A DNA stretch of 38,578 nucleotides. Origin: Saprospiraceae bacterium. Its GTDB lineage: Bacteria > Bacteroidota > Bacteroidia > Chitinophagales > Saprospiraceae. Every line of letters starts with the position of its first letter. The stretch's first letter is position 1. The stretch spans positions 1-38,578 of the forward strand of contig JAJTFM010000030.1 of NCBI GenBank assembly GCA_021298575.1, read 5' to 3'. The translations under genes and the position numbers were made by a program. Under the pieces are notes generated by a model, which worked only from the letters and a program-made list of their open reading frames with translations, was not told the DNA's origin and searched no databases. Shown here piece by piece: positions 8,839 to 30,165 of this stretch.

Positions 8839-9640
8839 GCGATTTTTACTCCTGATACTGCTCTCTGTGGCGGTTTCTGTCTCCGGCCTTTGGGCGCAGG
8901 ACGACCTCTTCCCGCCGAAGCCTGAACCTGCTGTTTATGTACATGATTACGCAGGATGGCTCGAACCCGGTCAAAAAGCGCAACTGGAACAAAGGCTCCG
9001 CGCTTACCGGGATTCTACTTCAACTCAGATAGTGGTCATGATTCGACCCGATATCGGCGACTATGACAAGGCCTCTTATGCCTTTGAACTTGGCAACCGG
9101 TGGGGGATTGGCCGGGCCGACAAGAATAACGGGGTGGTGGTGCTCGTGAAAACGGAAGCGCCGGAAAGAGGAATTTTTATCGCCACAGGTTATGGTACAG
9201 AGGGTGCTCTGCCGGATATTACTGCCGGACGGATCATCCGCAATACCATGGCTCCGTTTTTCAGAGAAAGCAGGTATTACGAAGGTATTGACGCCGGTGT
9301 GACCGATATTGTCCAGGCTCTTTCGGGGGAGTTTGTCCGTGAACCTGAAAATGATCAGGTGGACAAAGTGATGACTGCTATCATTATCGCACTGGCTATC
9401 CTTTTCATTATCGGATTCATCTTCTACCAGACCCGCGGCCGTACAATGATAGATCACCGCGGTTCGCGCAGCATGCGCCCCCGACAATCCGACTGGTGGA
9501 TCGGCGGTGGCGGCTTCGGTGGTTTCGGCGGTGGTTTTGGCGGCGGATCGGGCGGTGGCGGCTTTGATGGCGGCTCCTTCGGTGGCGGCTCCTTCGGTGG
9601 CGGCTCGTTTGGCGGTGGCGGAGCCGGAGGTGACTGGTAG
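8831..9640 (+). CDS. TPM domain protein, exported/membrane, Gly-rich C-terminus (YgcG-like)
   Basis: 269 residues from the ATG at 8831, which starts a clean signal peptide (KRFLLLILLSVAVSVSGLWAQ). The longer frame from 8786 would place charged residues before it. The TPM domain (about 35-165) begins VYVHDYAGWLEPGQKAQLE and includes IATGYGTEGALPD. A membrane segment follows (about 180-198, MTAIIIALAILFIIGFIF). The last 45 residues are almost only Gly, Ser and Phe, ending GGGGAGGDW, as in YgcG relatives. It lies at the end of the LemA operon. Confidence 0.87.
   Translation: MGKRFLLLILLSVAVSVSGLWAQDDLFPPKPEPAVYVHDYAGWLEPGQKAQLEQRLRAYRDSTSTQIVVMIRPDIGDYDKASYAFELGNRWGIGRADKNNGVVVLVKTEAPERGIFIATGYGTEGALPDITAGRIIRNTMAPFFRESRYYEGIDAGVTDIVQALSGEFVREPENDQVDKVMTAIIIALAILFIIGFIFYQTRGRTMIDHRGSRSMRPRQSDWWIGGGGFGGFGGGFGGGSGGGGFDGGSFGGGSFGGGSFGGGGAGGDW
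9572..9616 (+). repeat. Tandem 15-bp repeats in the Gly-rich tail
   Basis: Three units of the pattern GGCTCCTTCGGTGGC (9572-9586, 9587-9601, and a diverged unit 9602-9616), encoding GSFGG. The first two units are identical, so slippage-driven length variation of the tail is plausible. Confidence 0.75.
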
Positions 9641-20651: not shown

Positions 20652-20814
20652 AGAGCTTGTTCAGGATTCTCTCACCGAGTCAAAAACGGCTCATTTTTCG
20701 CCATTTTTCACCTTTTTTCAGTTACGTAGCTCCGGCTATGCACCTTCAAAAATGCAAAAACTGACAAAAAATCTGCCTGTTTTTGCCACCGGCAGAGAAT
20801 CCTGAACAAGCTCT
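20652..20814 (+). mobile_element. MITE-like element, copy 1 (163 bp)
   Basis: Perfect 21-bp terminal inverted repeats begin AGAGCTTGTTCA (20652-20672) and end TGAACAAGCTCT (20794-20814). There is no coding capacity. Internal features: an AT-rich arm and a central hairpin ACGTAGCtccgGCTATGC. A second copy of identical length lies at 30722-30884 in the same orientation with six differences. It sits between lysS and the convergent trans-sulfuration pseudogene; its last T is the first base (minus strand: last) of that gene's TAA. No clear target duplication is visible. It was probably mobilised by a transposase encoded elsewhere; family not assigned. Confidence 0.85.
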
Positions 20815-21888
20815 TATGCATACTCCCGGAGGGCATTTGCGAGATCTGCGATGAGATCATCGGCGTCTTCCACGCCGACGCTGAGCCTGATGAGCGAGTC
20901 GGTGAGGCCCACTTTAAGGCGTTCTTCGCGGGGGATGCTGGCGTGTGTCATGCTGGCCGGGTGTCCGATAAGGGATTCGACGCCGCCGAGCGATTCGGCC
21001 AGAGAGAACAGGTGTGTGCCGCTCAGAATCCGTACCGCATTTTCCATGGTATTATCCTTCAGATCGAATGAGACCATGGCGCCGAACATGCGCATCTGGC
21101 GTTTGGCTACTTCGTGGTTAGGGTGATCTTCAAAGCCGGGCCAATATACTTTTGACACTTTTGGGTGAGACACCAGGAAGTTGGCTACAGCTTCGGCGTT
21201 CTCGCATGCGCGCTGCACACGCAGGTGGAGAGTTTTTATACCGCGCAGCACCGTCTTTGACGATCAGGCATCCGTGAACCACATCAGAGTGGCCACCTAT
21301 ATATTTGGTAGCAGAGTGCAGCACGATATCCGCTCCCAGGTCGAGCGGGTTTTGCAGGTATGGTGAGGCAAAGGTATTGTCAACACACACCATGATGCCG
21401 TGTTTTTGGGCAATTCTGCAAACCGCAGCTATATCCACAATATTAAGCATCGGGTTGGTGGGCGTTTCCACCCATATCAGTTTGGTATCGGGGTCAATTT
21501 CACGTTCCAGGTTTTCCGGGTTATACATATCAATAAAACGGCTTTTCAGTCCCCACTGTCCCCATACCCGCACCATTTGCCGGTAGGAGCCGCCGTAGAG
21601 GTCATTAACGGCCAGAATTTCATCGCCTGAGGCAAACAGTTTTATGACTGCGTCCTGTGCTGCGAGGCCCGAGCCGAAACAGATGGCATCACATCCGTTT
21701 TCAAGTGCTGCGAGATTTTTTTCCAGCGCACTGCGCGTGGGATTCTGAGTGCGCGCATACTCGAACCCTTTGTGTTTACCGGGAGCTTCCTGTACATAGG
21801 TACTTGTCTGGAAGATAGGAGTCATGACTGCGCCGGTGGACGGGTCGGGCTCTACGCCGGCGTGAATTGCTTTGGTTGCGAATTTCAT
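20814..21888 (-). pseudogene. Trans-sulfuration PLP enzyme (cystathionine gamma-synthase-like), broken by internal deletion and frameshift
   Basis: The frame from ATG 21888 (MKFATKAIHAGVEPDPSTGA; an ATG at 21906 is also possible) is intact through the PLP lysine, Lys195 in HSATKYIGGHSD, and HGCLIVKDG. It then leaves the family. The rest of the protein, VLRGIKTLHLRVQRAC to ALREYA, continues in another frame from 21251 to the TAA at 20816-20814. About 25 residues expected between KD and VLRG are missing, and one extra base remains at the junction (near 21252), so the lesion is a deletion of about 74 bp. Intact relatives are cystathionine gamma-synthases/lyases and homoserine sulfhydrylases. The stop codon uses the last base of the MITE. 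Confidence 0.85.
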
Positions 21889-21940
21889 TGAAAAATGGTT
21901 TGTCATTGAAAAGGTATGTATTTCGGATCGGAGGCAGGTG

Positions 21941-22188: not shown

Positions 22189-22325
22189 ATTTTATGAAAA
22201 AAAATGAATGAAACTGTGAAAAATTGGGCGGGTGATTAACCCTGTTTTCGTGTCCTGTTCTACCCCCCCTCGCGGGAAGACCTTTGCTGCTGTCAATTGT
22301 GAACGAAAACAAAAAATAATCACTG

Positions 22326-22508
22326 ATGAAAAGCGCACTTACTCTCCCGACCACCACCAAGAATACCACTACCAACCTGTCAGAGAATATCACCGGCCTT
22401 GATTTGATCGGAGCGCGTATTACCGGGCTCGACTTGATCGGAGCGCGTATTACGGGTCTTGACCTGATTGGAGCGCGTATTACGGGTCTTGACCTGATCG
22501 GAGTGTAA
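22326..22508 (+). CDS. 60-residue tandem decapeptide (pentapeptide-repeat-like) protein
   Basis: I do not recognise this gene. The first 21 residues are polar and Thr-rich (LPTTTKNTTTN). Residues 22-60 are four tandem copies of ITGLDLIGAR, the last shortened to ITGLDLIGV before TAA. In another register it reads LDLIG-ARITG-LDLIG-ARITG, matching the pentapeptide-repeat consensus (small residue, D/N, L/F, S/T/R, G), so it could make about two square beta-helix coils. The four 30-bp DNA units differ only at synonymous positions, which is strong evidence that it is translated and selected. There is no signal peptide and no cysteine. The next gene starts 76 bp later, after a small hairpin. A multi-core precursor peptide is the main alternative. 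Confidence 0.75.
   Translation: MKSALTLPTTTKNTTTNLSENITGLDLIGARITGLDLIGARITGLDLIGARITGLDLIGV
22389..22508 (+). repeat. Four tandem 30-bp coding repeats
   Basis: Units at 22389-22418, 22419-22448, 22449-22478 and 22479-22508. Differences between units are ATC/ATT, ACC/ACG, GGC/GGG/GGT, CTT/CTC, GAT/GAC and TTG/CTG, all silent. Only the last two codons of unit 4 change the product (GCG CGT to GTG TAA). Confidence 0.95.
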
Positions 22509-22584: not shown

Positions 22585-23052
22585 ATGAGTAATCTTTCAA
22601 CACCTGCATACCTGCCTGGAGCCTTTGGCAGAGCTGCCTTTTTGAAAGAGGCATTCGGCCCGGGTGTATCATCATCTGCACGCAAGTACCAGGCATCCTG
22701 CGAAGTTGTGTTTGGCGCTCCCAGTGCCAACTGCGTGGGTACGGGAGTTTGTAAGATTATCGCAAAGTCCGACACAGCAGCGATTGCCTCATTGAAAAAA
22801 GACTGCAAGCGTGTCAGTGCTCTTCTGATGCCGTACGAGAATGGTCACGGGGTATCACTGATCATTGCCAGAGAGATGATGTGCATTCATCTTCTGCGCA
22901 CACAGTTCAGGAACAGCCAGTTATCTCTGTCGGAGAGCTGTGGATTACCTGGAGACATTGTTAATCAGCTGGATTTGAAAATCAGCAAGATACGTCCGGG
23001 GGCATACACCATAGACGAGGTAAACGGATTTTTCCGGATCAATTTCAGATGA
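22585..23052 (+). CDS. Orphan cytosolic protein with six cysteines
   Basis: 155 residues; not recognised. There is no signal peptide or membrane segment, so it is probably cytoplasmic. A disordered-looking, Pro/Gly/Ala-rich start (TPAYLPGAFGRAAFL) precedes a core with Cys39, Cys50, Cys56, Cys74, Cys100 and Cys119. SCEVVFGAPSANCVGTGVCK gives C-x10-C-x5-C, which could bind metal or an Fe-S centre. Helical stretches (SLIIAREMMCIHLLRTQF) follow, and the end, IRPGAYTIDEVNGFFRINF, looks like a small beta domain. The ATG at 22585 has an A-rich leader typical of the phylum. It is the second gene of the repeat-protein/HYR cluster, 82 bp before the next gene. Confidence 0.7.
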   Translation: MSNLSTPAYLPGAFGRAAFLKEAFGPGVSSSARKYQASCEVVFGAPSANCVGTGVCKIIAKSDTAAIASLKKDCKRVSALLMPYENGHGVSLIIAREMMCIHLLRTQFRNSQLSLSESCGLPGDIVNQLDLKISKIRPGAYTIDEVNGFFRINFR

Positions 23053-23134: not shown

Positions 23135-23563
23135 ATGAGTACAATGAAATCAAGAGTAGTTCCGAGGGGAAAGCTGCTCGCATTCATTTGCTTCCTGACA
23201 TTATTGTTCTTCAGTAATAGTCAGGTGATGGGGCAGACGCTCCAACCCAAGCCCAACGAGGTAGCATACAACTGGAAAACTCCTGCGGATGTATCCTCAT
23301 TATTAACAAATCAAATCAACATTTTGAATCAGCAGATGCCTGGTTTGGCGGAAGGCACATCTCTCTACGACAATACAGTCAGGAGGATAGCCTACTTCAA
23401 AGCCATCGTCTCCGAGATCAAAAATGGCAGTTCAGTTTCCAACTCACTGGAGTTGGCGCTGCCTGCAGCTGCTACGCTCGGTTTCATGAAGGAAGCTTCC
23501 TATACACCGAGAATAACGTTGAAAGCACTGCAGACCGAAACACGCATCATGTTGACTAATTGA
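23135..23563 (+). CDS. Orphan small exported protein
   Basis: 142 residues from the ATG at 23135; the longer frame from 23054 reads non-coding sequence in front. Residues about 14-34 form a signal peptide (LLAFICFLTLLFF then SQVMGQ). The mature part, about 108 residues, is mainly helical: DVSSLLTNQINILNQQM, RRIAYFKAIVSEI, SLELALPAAATLGFM. No cysteines remain in the mature part, and there is no sorting domain, so it should stay in the periplasm unless exported by another route. Not recognised. Located 101 bp before the giant surface protein, which suggests a helper role (inference only). Confidence 0.7.
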   Translation: MSTMKSRVVPRGKLLAFICFLTLLFFSNSQVMGQTLQPKPNEVAYNWKTPADVSSLLTNQINILNQQMPGLAEGTSLYDNTVRRIAYFKAIVSEIKNGSSVSNSLELALPAAATLGFMKEASYTPRITLKALQTETRIMLTN

Positions 23564-23664: not shown

Positions 23665-26600
23665 ATGAAAAAGAGCAATTTAAAGATATTCCTCATTGGT
23701 TTGGTGGCTTTAGCCAGCGGCATGCTGCAAGCGCAGACCAGTGTTAACATGGCCTTGAACGGAGCGACCGGTACATTTTCCATCGCACCTTCTACAACAT
23801 GCGCCATCAACTTTTATGACAGCGGCGGTCCTTCAAACAACTATCAAAACGGTTCGGATGCCTATGTCACATTTCTTCCATCAAACAGTGCGACACACCG
23901 GATACAGGCACAGTTCCTGTCCATGGGTCTGGAGCCTGATCGCGACGCGTTCTACATCTACAACAGCAACACTTTGGGTGTCAACCAGGTTGTAGGTCCT
24001 CAGGGCGCAACTTCCTCGGGTTTTCCCGCGGGCAACTGGCAGAATATCAACCCTGGCACGGTAACGGCCAATACGGGTATAGCTGCTGTTGGTCCCAATG
24101 CGGCAGAGGCCCTTACGTTTCAATTCAGATCTGACGCGTCTGTAGCGGCTGCCGGCTGGCAAGCTGTTGTTCGTCAGATTCCTATCATAAGCTGCAGCAT
24201 GACAGCTCCGATGCCACAAACGGCATTCACCGGTTTGGGCTCCTCATCCTGCACAGCCATGGTCACAACAGCGATTCCAACGTTTTCGCCGGGTGGCTGT
24301 CAGGTTGGCTATCAGTTGCAATACCGCATTAATGGCGGTTCTCCTGTTACTGTTGCCGACCCTGTGACTACCAATATCACACTTCCGGTTGGTATTAATA
24401 TCGTAACGTGGGAGTTGACTGATCCATGCGGAGGCGGTGTGATTACATCTGCCAATCAGACTATTACAGTTACAGACAACTCTTTCCCGCAGATTACCTG
24501 CCCGGGTAACACCACTATTAATCTGGGTCCCGGTGAGTGCGAGCGCACTTTCGATTACAACATCTCCTGTGCCGACAACTGCGGATTTCTCTCCAATCGT
24601 CAGGTTATCACTCCTTTCGACTTCAACGACGGTCAGGCAGGCGTTATGTTCGATTTGGTGAATCTGGGTAGTACCCCAATCACTGTTACGCAGTTTGGTC
24701 CATCTCTGGATCCGGGTACATGGCCGATTGAGGTTTATGTCACAACTGCGGCTACTACCTGGCAGGGCAATCAAAATAATGCCAGCGCCTGGACGATTGC
24801 CGGTGCAATCAACGTTACTTCAACCACACCAAGTTCAGGTACTGCCATACCCGGTTTTGGCATTACGATTCCTGCGGGACAATCCAGGGGTATCTATATC
24901 ACAAGTTCAACGGGAGTTCCTATCAATTATACGACGGGAACACGTTCGAACGATGATACCATTCTCAGAATTGCGTCTGCACCTGGTGTTGGAGTAGGTT
25001 ATCCTTTTGGCGCTACATCGACGTCCCGCGCCTATAATGGTTATGTACGCTACTCTGCCAATCTGACACAGGCCCCCGTACAACTCAATGGTCTGCCTTC
25101 CGGCCAGGTTTATCCCATTGGTACAACTACAAACGTATTCCGTTGTACTGATGCTAGTGGCAACACATCTACCTGTTCTTTCACGGTTACCGTTCTGGAG
25201 TATCCAACTCCAACCTGGGCGCTGAACTGCAACGATCTGGTATCTGTTTCCATTGGCGATGACTGCCACCTTACACTCACTCCCGATGATATCCTGGAAG
25301 GAGGCCCTTACCGCTGTTTTGATAATTATGATATCAGGATTGACAAAATTGCACCTTTTGGCAATGGTCCGTGGGTTCTCCCTGAATTGACAGCCTCGGA
25401 TATCGGTAAAACCTACACGGTACGTATCACAGAGCCACTTACCGGAAACTCTTGCTCCGGCAATGTAAAAGTACTCGATGGCCGTCCGCCAGAGCTTGTT
25501 TGCCCGGCTCCTGTGACAATTCCGTGCAATCTTTCAGAGTCACCCTCTGATACCCGTGCATCAACACTTCGCCTGAGCTACGCTGTTCCGCTTGCGAATC
25601 TGCCAGTTGTAGTTCGCGATAATGAATCAAGAACTTTTGACATTCCTGTGCTGAGTTCTCCGGGTGTCAGGGTCAGAGACCTTGATCTCAGAACTATTAT
25701 CGGGGGGGATGCATTCAACAACAACCTGCGTATTGAGATCAAGAGCCCTGCAGGCACAACCATCAGAGTATTTGATCAGCAGGGCGGTTGTGGCCCGTCG
25801 GACCTGAATGTGCGCTTTGATGATGAAGGCTCAACTGTACTGTCTTGTGTAAACTTCACCACGGGTGCAAATGTCAAAATGCCGGGTGTGAATCTTGGAG
25901 CATTTGATAATGAACTCGCCTATGGTATATGGAAAGTAATTGTTTCCGATGTGAATGGCGGAGCAGATGTAATGAACGTCAAAGAAGTGGAACTCTTCAT
26001 GAGCCTGAACGGAGTGTTCGGTGCCGGATTCCCCAACAACGTTCAGCCTAATCAGGCTACATCTACCGGCCTCAATACATACTCTGTTCCTGCCGGACTG
26101 ATTGATGCCTGTACGAAGGTGACTCTTTCCTACTTCGATACAAGGGTCAACCAGAACTGCGGATCTCCTTATACAGCTATTATTACCCGTGTATGGACAG
26201 CCGTTGATGAAAGTGGCAACTCAAGCACTTGTGCCCAGACGATCAATCTGCTTCGTCCGACACACAGCGATGTTCAGTTTCCGCCTAACTACGACGATTT
26301 CGACCAGCCGCACATCATGTGCGAATTCGATGAGTATCCAAGTCCCGACTGGCTCGAGGGTGTAGGTCTGCAGGGCTGGCCGACAACATTCAGTCTGCCC
26401 GACAATTGCCAGATTAACTGGACTTATGAAGATCAGGTGGTTCCAATTTGTGATGGTTCTTATGATGTACTGAGAACCTGGACGGTTTCTGATCCGTGTA
26501 ATGCCATGAAGTTATCAAAGCACCTTCAGATCATACACATCCGTGATGAAGATGGTCCGAAGTTCCTGGAATGTCCTTCCAACATCATTGAGTCAACAGA

Positions 26601-29600
26601 TCCGTTCAAGTGCTGCGCCACTGTCAATCTGCCCGATGTACTGGTTGAGGACAATTGCTCCAGAGTTGATGGCATGACTGCACAGATTCACACACTGGAT
26701 CCATACACAGGGGATACTATCAAGACATACTCCATCATCGGAGGTCTGACAACATTCCCCGGAAACAACCCGAGTGACCCGGACACACTTGCTACCTTTG
26801 GCAACACGCCATGCCTGCCGGTTGGTGATCATATCGTGGTATATTTCTCTCAGGACAACTGCGGCAATACAAGTACATGCAGCTTCAGACTGACTGTACG
26901 AGATTATGCACCGCCGCAGCCTTCCTGCGATGAGGAAACAGTGGTTGCAATTGGAATTGACAATCCCCTTGATTGCTATTATCCAAGTGCAAATGGTTGC
27001 GAATTCCCCGGTGTAACCTGGGTACAGGCAACTACATTCGATGACGGTTCATACGACGAGTGCAGCCCGATCAAGTTCACTATTCGCCGTCAGGCGCCAT
27101 ATAGCGACTGTATCGAAGGGCTCGACAAGTTCCCATGCACGTCCAATGGTGTAACCGGACAGAGTGAGTACGATCTGGCAATCGCAGAAAGTGACTCCAT
27201 CAAGTTTTACTGCTGCGAGGTAGGAACAACTCAGGATGTGATTCTGCGTGTTTATCAACTGAACTTTGACGGAACTATCGCAACATATCTGGATGGAACG
27301 CCGATTTTTAACGAGTGTAACGTCAAAGTGACCGTTCAGGATCGTCTGAAACCGGTTTGTGTGCCTCCGCCGAACTATACAGTTACCTGCGAAAGCTTCG
27401 ACCCGACGTTCTGGGCTTATGGAATTCCACAGGTTTATGACAACTGCTGCCTGGATGACGCTCGTATTTATCAGAACCAGAAGGGTCTGACACACTCGGT
27501 AAACTACAGCCAGTTCGACTCTGTCTGCAACAAGGGTACAATCGTTCGCACATTCCGCGTATCGGATTGCCACAACCAGACAAGCCAGTGCACCCAGCGT
27601 ATCGTAGTGAATTACGAACAGGATTACTTTGTGAAGTTCCCCGACGACAAGATCATTACTGTTTGCGACGGAACCGGTTTGTATGGTGAGCCTACTTTCT
27701 TCGGTGAAGATTGTGAATTGATTGGTGTTTCTTACGAAGATCAGATCTTCACTGTTGTACCCGATGCCTGCTTCAAGATTGAACGAACCTGGAAGATTAT
27801 CAACTGGTGTACCTACGATCCTCAGCAGACTTGCACAGTAGTTCCGAATCCGAATCCGAACTCAATCACCAACCACAGCACCAACCTGCCTGGTCCGATT
27901 GTGTCCGCTCCGGGAACGGTAGGTATCTGGGCACCCACAACCGTAGCGGTTACTCCGGGTGCATCAGCTACCAACTTCAGCCAGTTCTGGAGTCCGACGA
28001 ACAACTGTTACACATACAAGCAGATCATCAAGGTGATTGACCTGAAGGCACCAATTATAGAGTGCCCTGCCAGCCCGGTTGAATACTGCGACATCACTTC
28101 CAACAATCCACAGTTGTGGAATGAGCAGTACTGGTACGAGCCATCTATCGGCACACATGACATGGCAGATGCACCAACTGATATCTCGGTAACAGCTACG
28201 GATCTTTGTTCCGGTGCCAACCTGAGTGTTCGCTACCTGCTGCTGCTCGATCTCGACAGCGATGGTACGATGGAGACAGTCATCAACAGTGTGAATCCAC
28301 CAGCTGCCGGTACAGTGAATTACGACAACGTGGGCACATCGAACTACACGGGTGGCGTTGTGCGCAACTTTGACCAGCGTCCGGTTAATGCCAACCAGAA
28401 GTATCGCTTTGGTCTGAGAACTACCACATCCGGCAATACTCTGACGGCTTCTGTCCGCTGGAATACCCTGGCCGCCCAAAACACACATGTTGTTCCTGAA
28501 CTGCCTTACGGCATGCACAAGATCAAGTGGTTCATCGGTGATGGCTGTGGCAATGAAGCTGTTTGCGAATATGCTATCATAGTGAAAGACTGTGAAGCGC
28601 CAACGGTTACCTGCAGAAACGGTTTGTCAGTAAACATCGCACCGGGTGGTACCATCCACATCTTTGCCAGCGATTTCCTGCTGGATGCGTATGATAACTA
28701 CACACCGGATGACCAGCTTGAGTTCGCTATCCGCAAGTCTGGAATTGGAACCGGCTTCCCGCTCACTTCCGGTAACCAGCCGGTTGTCAGTCTCTCGTTC
28801 GACTGCAGTGAATTGGGTACGCAGCCAATCGAACTGTGGGGTAAAGACAAAGCAGGTCGCGCCGATTACTGTGAAACATACCTGATTGTTCAGGATAATG
28901 TTGCCAACTGTGATAACGATATGATATCTGTTTCAGGTGCACTGAAAACAGAAGGTGGAAACGGTCTTGAAGAGAGTGATGTGGAAATTTCCGGTCACAA
29001 TCCCGCAGGCCCGGCATTCAACTACTTCGACATGACGGATCACAACGGTACTTACGACTTTACCGATGCTGTGCCGGTCTTCTCGAACTACGAGGTGACA
29101 CCCACCAAGGATGACAACCCGCTGAATGGTATCACTACGTTCGACCTGGTACTGATCAGCAAGCATATCCTCGGTATCGAGCCTCTCGGCTCTCCGTACA
29201 AGATGATCGCAGCAGACGCCAACAGGTCCAACTCAATCACTACCATGGATATCGTTGAGTTGCGCAAACTGATCCTCGGAGTTTACACTGAACTGCCCAA
29301 CAATAACAGCTGGAGGTTCGTTGACAAGTCTTATGTATTCCCCAATTCTGACAATCCTTTCACGGCAGCAATTCCTGAAAGCAAGTCGGTGGCAAGTATA
29401 CAGGGATCTTCTGCAGGTGACGACTTCGTAGCAATCAAGGTAGGTGATATCAACGGAAGTGCAGTAGCCAACTCCATGATGTTTGCCGACGACCGTACAG
29501 CAGGCACACTGATCTTTGATGTAAATGATCGCGAAGTGAAAGCTGGTGAGGTGTTCGATGTAACTTTCAAAGCTACAGAGCACGTTACCGGATACCAGTT

Positions 29601-30165
29601 CACACTCGGATACGGTGATATGGAACTCGTGGATATCGTAACTCCGGACAATATGAGCGACGACAACTTCGCTGTGTTCCCGGACAATCACACACTGACC
29701 ACTTCCTGGAACGGCAACGGACAATCAGAGTTCACACTCAAGCTCCGCGCCAACCGTACCGGTCAGATCAGCAAAATGCTGAACCTGTCGAGCAGCGTGA
29801 CCAAAGCTGAAGCATATCGCCTTGGAAACGACAACGTAACTGCCGAGCAGCTGGGTATCGCCCTGCGCTTCAATGGCAAGGAAGGTTCCGTACTCACTGG
29901 CGTAGGCTTCGAACTATACCAGAATCAACCTAACCCGTTTGTGAACCGTACCACCATCGGATTCCACCTGCCGGAAGATGCTTCTGCACGCCTCACAGTT
30001 TACGATGAAACCGGTCGCCTGGTTTATTCTCAGAGAGGTGAGTACACGAAGGGTTACAACTACTTCGTACTCGATCGCGCCATGCTGAATTCTACAGGAA
30101 CGCTTTTCTACACTGTAGAAACCGACAACGACGCGGCTACCCGCAAAATGATTCAATCGAAGTAA
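23665..30165 (+). CDS. Giant HYR-domain surface protein with T9SS sorting domain
   Basis: 2166 residues. A signal peptide (1-23) is followed by: a CUB-like domain (about 45-176, NFYDSGGPSNNYQNG, DAFYIYNS); an HYR module (about 271-512) split by a roughly 160-residue insert between SCADNCG and GTTTNVFRCTDASGN; a P-domain-like region (about 634-780, IGGDAFNNNLRIEIKSP, GIWKVIVSDVNGG); a long Cys-rich series of HYR/Ig-like modules (about 820-1750, for example CSFRLTVRDYAPP); a pre-dockerin region plus two degenerate dockerin helices (1817-1838, 1851-1872, each ending in a leucine/isoleucine-rich helix and LG); a cohesin-like beta domain (about 1946-2045, VKAGEVFDVTFKAT); and a T9SS CTD (2085-2166, NQPNPFVNRTTIGF). 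It is probably an exported adhesin or matrix protein. A strong terminator follows. Confidence 0.9.
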   Translation: MKKSNLKIFLIGLVALASGMLQAQTSVNMALNGATGTFSIAPSTTCAINFYDSGGPSNNYQNGSDAYVTFLPSNSATHRIQAQFLSMGLEPDRDAFYIYNSNTLGVNQVVGPQGATSSGFPAGNWQNINPGTVTANTGIAAVGPNAAEALTFQFRSDASVAAAGWQAVVRQIPIISCSMTAPMPQTAFTGLGSSSCTAMVTTAIPTFSPGGCQVGYQLQYRINGGSPVTVADPVTTNITLPVGINIVTWELTDPCGGGVITSANQTITVTDNSFPQITCPGNTTINLGPGECERTFDYNISCADNCGFLSNRQVITPFDFNDGQAGVMFDLVNLGSTPITVTQFGPSLDPGTWPIEVYVTTAATTWQGNQNNASAWTIAGAINVTSTTPSSGTAIPGFGITIPAGQSRGIYITSSTGVPINYTTGTRSNDDTILRIASAPGVGVGYPFGATSTSRAYNGYVRYSANLTQAPVQLNGLPSGQVYPIGTTTNVFRCTDASGNTSTCSFTVTVLEYPTPTWALNCNDLVSVSIGDDCHLTLTPDDILEGGPYRCFDNYDIRIDKIAPFGNGPWVLPELTASDIGKTYTVRITEPLTGNSCSGNVKVLDGRPPELVCPAPVTIPCNLSESPSDTRASTLRLSYAVPLANLPVVVRDNESRTFDIPVLSSPGVRVRDLDLRTIIGGDAFNNNLRIEIKSPAGTTIRVFDQQGGCGPSDLNVRFDDEGSTVLSCVNFTTGANVKMPGVNLGAFDNELAYGIWKVIVSDVNGGADVMNVKEVELFMSLNGVFGAGFPNNVQPNQATSTGLNTYSVPAGLIDACTKVTLSYFDTRVNQNCGSPYTAIITRVWTAVDESGNSSTCAQTINLLRPTHSDVQFPPNYDDFDQPHIMCEFDEYPSPDWLEGVGLQGWPTTFSLPDNCQINWTYEDQVVPICDGSYDVLRTWTVSDPCNAMKLSKHLQIIHIRDEDGPKFLECPSNIIESTDPFKCCATVNLPDVLVEDNCSRVDGMTAQIHTLDPYTGDTIKTYSIIGGLTTFPGNNPSDPDTLATFGNTPCLPVGDHIVVYFSQDNCGNTSTCSFRLTVRDYAPPQPSCDEETVVAIGIDNPLDCYYPSANGCEFPGVTWVQATTFDDGSYDECSPIKFTIRRQAPYSDCIEGLDKFPCTSNGVTGQSEYDLAIAESDSIKFYCCEVGTTQDVILRVYQLNFDGTIATYLDGTPIFNECNVKVTVQDRLKPVCVPPPNYTVTCESFDPTFWAYGIPQVYDNCCLDDARIYQNQKGLTHSVNYSQFDSVCNKGTIVRTFRVSDCHNQTSQCTQRIVVNYEQDYFVKFPDDKIITVCDGTGLYGEPTFFGEDCELIGVSYEDQIFTVVPDACFKIERTWKIINWCTYDPQQTCTVVPNPNPNSITNHSTNLPGPIVSAPGTVGIWAPTTVAVTPGASATNFSQFWSPTNNCYTYKQIIKVIDLKAPIIECPASPVEYCDITSNNPQLWNEQYWYEPSIGTHDMADAPTDISVTATDLCSGANLSVRYLLLLDLDSDGTMETVINSVNPPAAGTVNYDNVGTSNYTGGVVRNFDQRPVNANQKYRFGLRTTTSGNTLTASVRWNTLAAQNTHVVPELPYGMHKIKWFIGDGCGNEAVCEYAIIVKDCEAPTVTCRNGLSVNIAPGGTIHIFASDFLLDAYDNYTPDDQLEFAIRKSGIGTGFPLTSGNQPVVSLSFDCSELGTQPIELWGKDKAGRADYCETYLIVQDNVANCDNDMISVSGALKTEGGNGLEESDVEISGHNPAGPAFNYFDMTDHNGTYDFTDAVPVFSNYEVTPTKDDNPLNGITTFDLVLISKHILGIEPLGSPYKMIAADANRSNSITTMDIVELRKLILGVYTELPNNNSWRFVDKSYVFPNSDNPFTAAIPESKSVASIQGSSAGDDFVAIKVGDINGSAVANSMMFADDRTAGTLIFDVNDREVKAGEVFDVTFKATEHVTGYQFTLGYGDMELVDIVTPDNMSDDNFAVFPDNHTLTTSWNGNGQSEFTLKLRANRTGQISKMLNLSSSVTKAEAYRLGNDNVTAEQLGIALRFNGKEGSVLTGVGFELYQNQPNPFVNRTTIGFHLPEDASARLTVYDETGRLVYSQRGEYTKGYNYFVLDRAMLNSTGTLFYTVETDNDAATRKMIQSK

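Follow-up and report, generated by a model that had tools for sequence, protein, structure and literature searches.

Regulatory leader peptides are encoded by small ORFs that lie before an operon and are accompanied by a conserved 5' region, and a beta-helix takes up about 20 residues for each of its coils. Streptococcal SHP precursors hold their activity in the last 8-9 residues (DIIIIVGG; PMC3150281), and fungal Kex2-processed repeat proteins contain repeated short units within one precursor (PMC7329392). Here we characterize a bacterial peptide gene from the Saprospiraceae that heads a conserved gene set and encodes a nonapeptide unit, ITGLDLIGA, which is held at the amino-acid level and is present in 1 to 4 copies.

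The window, that is, the whole stretch of DNA that was analysed (38,578 nucleotides), is an entire single contig from a genome of 3.57 Mb in 250 contigs. The features that concern us are as follows.

22226 to 22286, forward strand: conserved element upstream of the peptide gene, GGGCGGGTGAT ... TGTCCT-N22-GACCTTTG; the alignment covers 22 of 23 type-1 loci.
22326 to 22508, forward strand: peptide gene, 60 residues, of which residues 1-21 form a short N-terminal part that is followed by four ITGLDLIGA-type units.
22389 to 22505, forward strand: four tandem units, three of ITGLDLIGAR and one of ITGLDLIGV (Tandem Repeats Finder and comparison of the units).
22585 to 23052, forward strand: cysteine-motif protein, 155 residues, with C-x-V-x-F-G-x-P-x-x-x-C-x-G-T-G-x-C; signal peptide absent by eye.
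23135 to 23563, forward strand: exported protein of about 142 residues, with a hydrophobic N-terminus by eye; aligned in 11 loci.
23665 to 30165, forward strand: giant surface protein, 2166 residues, with HYR domains and a type IX C-terminal sorting tail (Pfam and NCBIfam matches).

The repeat begins at residue 22, with units starting at 22389, 22419, 22449 and 22479, and the stop codon directly follows the final ITGLDLIGV. Tandem Repeats Finder reported 3.9 copies of 30 bases with a score of 162, the top of three arrays in the window. Elsewhere in the window, a 15-base tandem repeat encodes a glycine/serine-rich stretch close to the end of a 284-residue ORF (9553-9606, forward strand). The initial annotation, made from the letters of the window, had described four perfect ITGLDLIGAR decapeptides. 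Three units do read this way, but the four are not all perfect because the last reads ITGLDLIGV before the stop. Its claim that the frame is real was borne out; the ORF at 22326-22508 (forward strand) is present, and orthologues with conserved units were found.

A search for homologues, suggested in the initial annotation as a check, returned relatives with conserved repeats: of 42 genomes sampled from the genus, 23 carry the peptide gene in this form, which we call type 1, with one unit in 10, two in 7, three in 2 and four in 4. All type-1 forms end at the stop codon with the unit, and the shortest has 19 residues. Multi-unit peptides (2, 3 or 4 units) were found by protein search in 13 of the 42 genomes, the window's included. 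The single-unit form (e.g. MKQQYEITANITGLDLIGA) was found, starting from the cysteine-motif protein, in nine genomes that lack a multi-unit match, and G014 is the tenth single-unit genome. In a collection of 84,980 species, the DNA pattern ITG[LF]D[LF]IG[AV] matched 51 stretches, of which 22 are peptide genes (10 single-unit, 12 multi-unit) and 29 are not. The 22 all lie in Bacteroidota records, named as Saprospiraceae, Lewinellaceae, Saprospirales, Chitinophagales or just Bacteroidota/Bacteroidetes. One of the 29 other stretches (L121, a Bacteroidetes record) holds a 17-codon frame without an ATG. A two-unit query against 398 drawn genomes of the family matched 8, every one of this genus. Copy number is clustered by clade on a tree of the neighbouring cysteine protein (21 rows), with 5 label changes against a mean of 9.8 on shuffling (0 of 200 shuffles as low), on a tree with just 4 of 18 inner branches well supported and two long-branched rows.

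The initial annotation also held that the units had diverged only by synonymous changes. Within the window, this is correct for seven codons, while an eighth carries a replacement (Ala to Val, last copy). The crude probability of at least 7 silent codons among 8 varying ones is 9e-4 at a neutral silent fraction of 0.285. Compared copy by copy with the nearest relative found (G001), over nine codons each, the window shows 15 silent changes and 0 replacements, with a probability of about 7e-9 at the same neutral fraction. This comparison and the invariance of seven of the nine unit positions uphold the earlier view that the peptide is under strong selection. Across the 46 units of the 23 type-1 loci, positions 1-5, 7 and 8 are invariant, position 6 is L in 45 and M in 1, and position 9 is A in 41, V in 4 and D in 1, whilst the codons vary freely; for one unit in each gene this invariance is to some extent built in, because the DNA pattern ITG[LF]D[LF]IG[AV], used for part of the locus finding, fixes the residues searched for, and further units in each gene were free to differ. 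Units compared within the same gene differ by 192 silent bases versus 12 replacement codons. Internal copies are almost as constrained as the last copy, four-copy genes included, and the least conserved unit is the middle one of G013. Successive units are set apart by one residue, which is R for the window and G001, K for G005 and G044, and C for the two-copy forms and one three-copy form; G013 has C and then G. A role of the repeat as a DNA-level element was rejected because the codons vary freely under a fixed peptide.

The register L-D-L-I-G / A-R-I-T-G had been said to fit the pentapeptide-repeat consensus, and the window protein indeed scores 21.1 bits against Pfam PF00805, above the cut-off of 20.2. 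Only 5 of 19 scanned type-1 peptides match PF00805 at E 0.1 or better and 14 do not; the scan took 19 of the 23 peptides, four of 19 residues being too short for the tool. AlphaFold2 modelling of the four-copy form gave low confidence (pLDDT 59.5, pTM 0.38, five models at 43-60). The suggestion that the protein is a minimal beta-helix or a capping piece did not survive the comparison with orthologues, which carry one unit (10 of 23) or two (7 of 23) and thus fall below one coil. A beta-helix or filament built by the repeat was rejected because these make up 17 of the 23 orthologous loci. The third option of the initial annotation, a multi-core precursor peptide, may still hold: the internal copies are conserved and have single-residue separators (R, K, C and once G), although the gene set showed no recognisable processing or modifying enzyme.

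The gene set downstream of the peptide is conserved. The cysteine-motif protein is encoded by the next gene in 21 of 23 type-1 loci, the contig ending first in L087 and L119. In 20 of these 21 loci it is followed by a small protein and then a long protein, and the remaining one (L106) ends after the cysteine gene. The small protein is exported and has about 142 residues, with a different one of 162 in L079, and 312 to 2175 residues of the long protein are visible, several being cut by the end of the stretch. An additional cysteine-protein copy, also exported, is present in L097, L109 and L112. In L012, L013 and L035 (G017, G020 and G049), a second, exported cysteine-motif protein was observed between the first copy and the 142-residue gene. 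The giant surface protein of the window matches PF02494 HYR (E 9.9e-14) and TIGR04183 (27 bits, cut-off 23), and its match to the Pfam tail model (19.4) is under the cut-off of 27. By eye, the neighbours of the gene set differ between species, being metC- and lysS-like genes in some and an mfd-like gene in others. In the window, a gene that we take to be metC-like (20814-21906, reverse strand) is split into two overlapping ORFs in different frames, of 258 and 145 residues. It is one 384-residue ORF in G001, and the split could be an assembly error or a broken gene.

The cysteine-motif protein is widespread, being found in 40 of 42 genomes of the genus, in 76 of 298 genomes of the family (41 of 112 genera, including this one) and in 12 of 149 genomes drawn from the order, family members included. 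Distantly related small proteins, which have hydrophobic N-termini and an F-G ... C-x-G-x-x-I-C motif, are encoded at two loci from another family of the same order (L264, L266). Of 298 family genomes, 7 have a match to the exported protein of about 142 residues, and the matches beyond the genus are weak. Neither this protein nor the cysteine-motif protein of the window has a Pfam or NCBIfam family, and 26 members of the cysteine-protein family gave one weak Pfam match (E 0.012) and zero NCBIfam matches. The predicted structure of the L112 member (pLDDT 73, pTM 0.65) is confident in its C-terminal part. Fold searches took this member rather than the window's own: Foldseek against the PDB gave a best E of 0.27 and none at 0.001, VIA-align gave a best Z of 4.2, to kinases, which we do not trust, and the best E of a PDB sequence profile was 0.033. 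Defence families gave no match; among phage families, the repeat peptide matches two of unknown function (best E 3.4e-4).

Ahead of the type-1 peptide lies a CCGGG-type block followed by TGTCCT-N22-GACCTTTG, aligned in all loci but L118, which has too little DNA. ACCTTTG is present in 23 of 23 loci, as is TGTCC-N20-26-[CG]ACCTTTG, and the exact TGTCCT-N22-GACCTTTG in 20 of 23. Across the genus, TGTCCT-N20-25-GACCTTTG has 42 matches in 27 of 42 genomes against 31 in a backwards-read control, and so is not rare by itself; 26 of the 42 matches fall at type 1 or type 4 peptide loci. A reading of the element as a structured RNA was rejected: single-sequence folding gave no consistent fold across loci, Rfam at gathering score had 0 matches in the window, and a permissive Rfam search gave one match (20.5 versus a gathering score of 155), which we take as chance.

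Further peptide types were found in the genus, where searches of all 42 genomes cover types 1, 2 and 4. Type 2 (e.g. MATWTLPLGWILLFLTGEMATCQDGNGNIIVIDVMGV) lies ahead of another cysteine-protein subfamily in 5 of 42 genomes, and in G021 and G051 the type 2 locus is not directly followed by a long protein on the same strand. Type 3 (e.g. MKSLTAIGTTPESANSIEFQFVQKSDDVIIIDIAGV; 5 loci) lies ahead of a third subfamily. Three of these loci continue with proteins of at least 2297, 3336 and 3441 residues and a fourth (G010) with one of at least 1499, and the long protein of G006 has SdrD_B domains. Type 5 (MKS...IIVDTT[MV]V; 8 loci) and type 6 (MKS...DIVTIDVIGF; 2 loci) also precede cysteine proteins, and these ten plausible peptides lack the CCTTTG element. 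Type 4 (e.g. MNLVLFLLSFLFASYAPATQTTDGDCNSGTVNNPGPGKGKGGKFGDGDYIIAMDINP) combines the 5' element with a hydrophobic N-terminus, and no cysteine-protein gene was found in the five loci examined. Its relatives occur in 8 of 42 genomes, and 6 of these were confirmed to carry both the tail and the element; a ninth match is weak and falls within a long frame. In G010 (L163, 1576-2169), the type-4 peptide and the secreted FN3-like protein of the next gene both end in DYIIAMDINP. This shared tail may be just a strand motif of that fold, since the FN3-like protein has relatives in G019, G021 and G044 with similar strands at their ends; the FN3 match itself (18.7) is below the Pfam cut-off of 25. Six other peptides gave no Pfam or NCBIfam match.

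In ten other genera as well as in this one, cysteine-protein genes have small peptides with a strand-like, Asp-containing C-terminus ahead of them clearly more often than controls do. In the genus loci, a small ORF with the motif lies upstream of 23 of 59 cysteine-protein genes, two of them spurious by eye (L140, L216), compared to 3 of 59 on the opposite strand and a Markov mean of 1.85 (maximum 5). The other 36 have no recognised peptide. In other genera, 73 cysteine-protein genes had sufficient DNA ahead of them for the test, and a motif ORF precedes 22 of these (opposite strand 3 of 73; Markov mean 2.55, maximum 6), the motif having been defined after seeing seven of the 73 loci; the other 51 have no recognised peptide. 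Loci fetched after the motif was noticed gave 14 of 40 (opposite strand 2 of 40; Markov mean 1.1, maximum 3). These tests measure the motif plus an ORF, not function, and the motif includes Asp. One other-genus case (L263) is spurious by eye, and the remaining 21 fall in 10 genera, four of which have in common the sub-type MKAxGIQLNGTxMxxxKGIINVDIIGP and its variants. In 13 of the 21 loci, an ORF of 430 residues or more follows on the same strand, and in two more there is one of 305 residues that runs off the stretch; the other six have no such long ORF or end too soon. The ORF in L305 does not resemble a surface protein. The distance from motif to stop varies in other genera because 0-3 residues follow the motif. 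The C-termini of the compared peptides are strand-like with an Asp, which is invariant by construction since it was part of the search pattern, and ITGLDLIGA is the least typical among them.

Two side observations were made at these loci. At about 1501 of L339 (reverse strand; G180), a second peptide gene, MNAHSLQLSGRAMLSNKGITNVDVIGPK, is paired with a cysteine-protein gene of its own and lies about 2.8 kb away from the first peptide gene of that genome. A TTGGAA-N6-8-TTG site, which we take to be sigma-54-like, was found upstream of 14 of the 59 genus-locus cysteine-protein ORFs (L129, L131, L132, L135-L140, L142, L144-L146 and L215). A recount with slightly different starts gave 15 ORFs, just one of which (L140, spurious by eye) has the motif ORF.

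From these sequence comparisons, we tentatively favour a reading in which ITGLDLIGA is the working part of the peptide. The unit would be a linear, strand-like recognition element for a partner. The co-encoded cysteine protein, which accompanies the peptides most often, is the likeliest candidate, and the two together would control the making or assembling of the surface protein. Since the unit stands alone or repeated, we favour such a linear element over a fold made by the repeat. Tandem copies would then raise dose or valency, the precursor being either cut at its one-residue linkers into several ligands or used whole as one multivalent ligand. Several observations speak against this reading: 36 of 59 cysteine-protein genes in the genus loci and 51 of 73 elsewhere lack a recognised peptide, the five type 4 loci examined combine the 5' element with no cysteine-protein gene, the type 2 loci of G021 and G051 have no long protein directly after them on the same strand, the motif was chosen with Asp in it and after seven of the counted loci had been seen, and ITGLDLIGA is the least typical of the C-termini compared. 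On a bolder version, which we regard as speculative and improbable, the Saprospiraceae would possess parallel peptide-partner channels with recognition ends of about nine residues and their own cysteine-motif receptors, gating giant surface proteins, and the tandem units in the window's lineage would be a multi-copy peptide signal precursor in a Gram-negative bacterium.

The strongest rival is regulation by a cis-acting leader, in which the ORF would act through ribosome pausing on its C-terminal motif, or through coupling, and the free peptide would have no role. The arrangement of the locus suits this explanation: the peptide comes first in the set, 31-151 nt before the next start in 21 loci, a conserved 5' element lies upstream, and many forms have just 19-40 residues with the conserved part at the end. 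Within the 21 gaps between the peptide and the next gene, 2 fold better than shuffles at z below -2 (L116, L120) and 8 contain a run of five T. We nevertheless consider it rather unlikely, as the spacing varies, internal copies far from the stop are also conserved, the distance to the stop varies in other genera and the codons vary freely. Folded singly rather than from an alignment, the 21 gaps share no structure (mean z -0.36), and an attenuator was rejected on this ground. If instead the peptide were a pheromone, exported, cut and sensed by other cells, each type would form its own channel and the copies would raise the yield as in fungal alpha-factor precursors. The resemblance to SHP precursors (PMC3150281), the hydrophobic N-termini of types 2 and 4 and the basic residue (R or K) that splits the units in four-copy forms are all consistent with this. 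Types 1 and 3, on the other hand, have no signal sequence by eye, the linker of the two-copy forms is C, and no helix-turn-helix/TPR receptor was recognised, the partner having no convincing Pfam family; Pfam and NCBIfam revealed no Rgg/RRNPP receptor domain in the window's three downstream set proteins. A pheromone appears unlikely.

The unit could also serve as a structural strand, docking as a beta-strand in an Ig-like/FN3-like fold or stacking into a fibre for surface-protein assembly. The strand-like C-termini, the DYIIAMDINP tail common to the G010 type-4 peptide and FN3-like protein, the similar ends of that protein's relatives in G019, G021 and G044, and the scoring of the 60-residue form as a Pfam pentapeptide all point in this direction. 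Against them, the identical tail is a single case with a sub-cut-off FN3 match, the one- and two-copy forms have too few residues to make a beta-helix and the four-copy model is weak, so that we judge this explanation to be quite improbable. Least probable is a multi-core precursor of a modified natural product (RiPP). The N-terminus does resemble a leader, and the repeated cores after it share a conserved Asp and in some cases contain a Cys, but Pfam and NCBIfam scans of the window's three downstream set proteins recognised neither a modifying enzyme nor a protease nor a transporter.

The gene family and its module are apparently undescribed: the peptide and partner families are unnamed in Pfam/NCBIfam scans, and in open-licence papers nothing was recognised as these peptides and the string ITGLDLIGA was absent. 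The families are present in at least 11 genera of one bacterial family, where a giant surface protein often follows, and the natural series of 1, 2, 3 and 4 units provides a ready experiment on the effect of repeating a short peptide unit.

Compared with described systems, the window protein shares the register of PF00805 pentapeptide repeat proteins but differs from them in that its type-1 orthologues have 1-2 units and no confident fold was obtained here. Like regulatory leader peptides, it is encoded by a small ORF that is first in its set and has a conserved 5' region, whereas its gaps have no shared structure, its codons vary freely and its internal copies are conserved. Fungal multi-copy precursors likewise repeat short units in one chain (PMC7329392), although the present peptide is bacterial, type 1 has no secretion signal by eye, the two-copy forms have a Cys linker and no protease was identified. 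By analogy only, the nearest known thing in kind is the SHP pheromone. The system described here differs from SHP/Rgg in belonging to Bacteroidota, in a partner that is no recognised HTH/TPR regulator, in its tandem copies and in the giant surface protein of the set, while both (PMC3150281 for SHP) have tiny precursors, 8-9 C-terminal residues with an acidic residue and a conserved partner encoded next to them.
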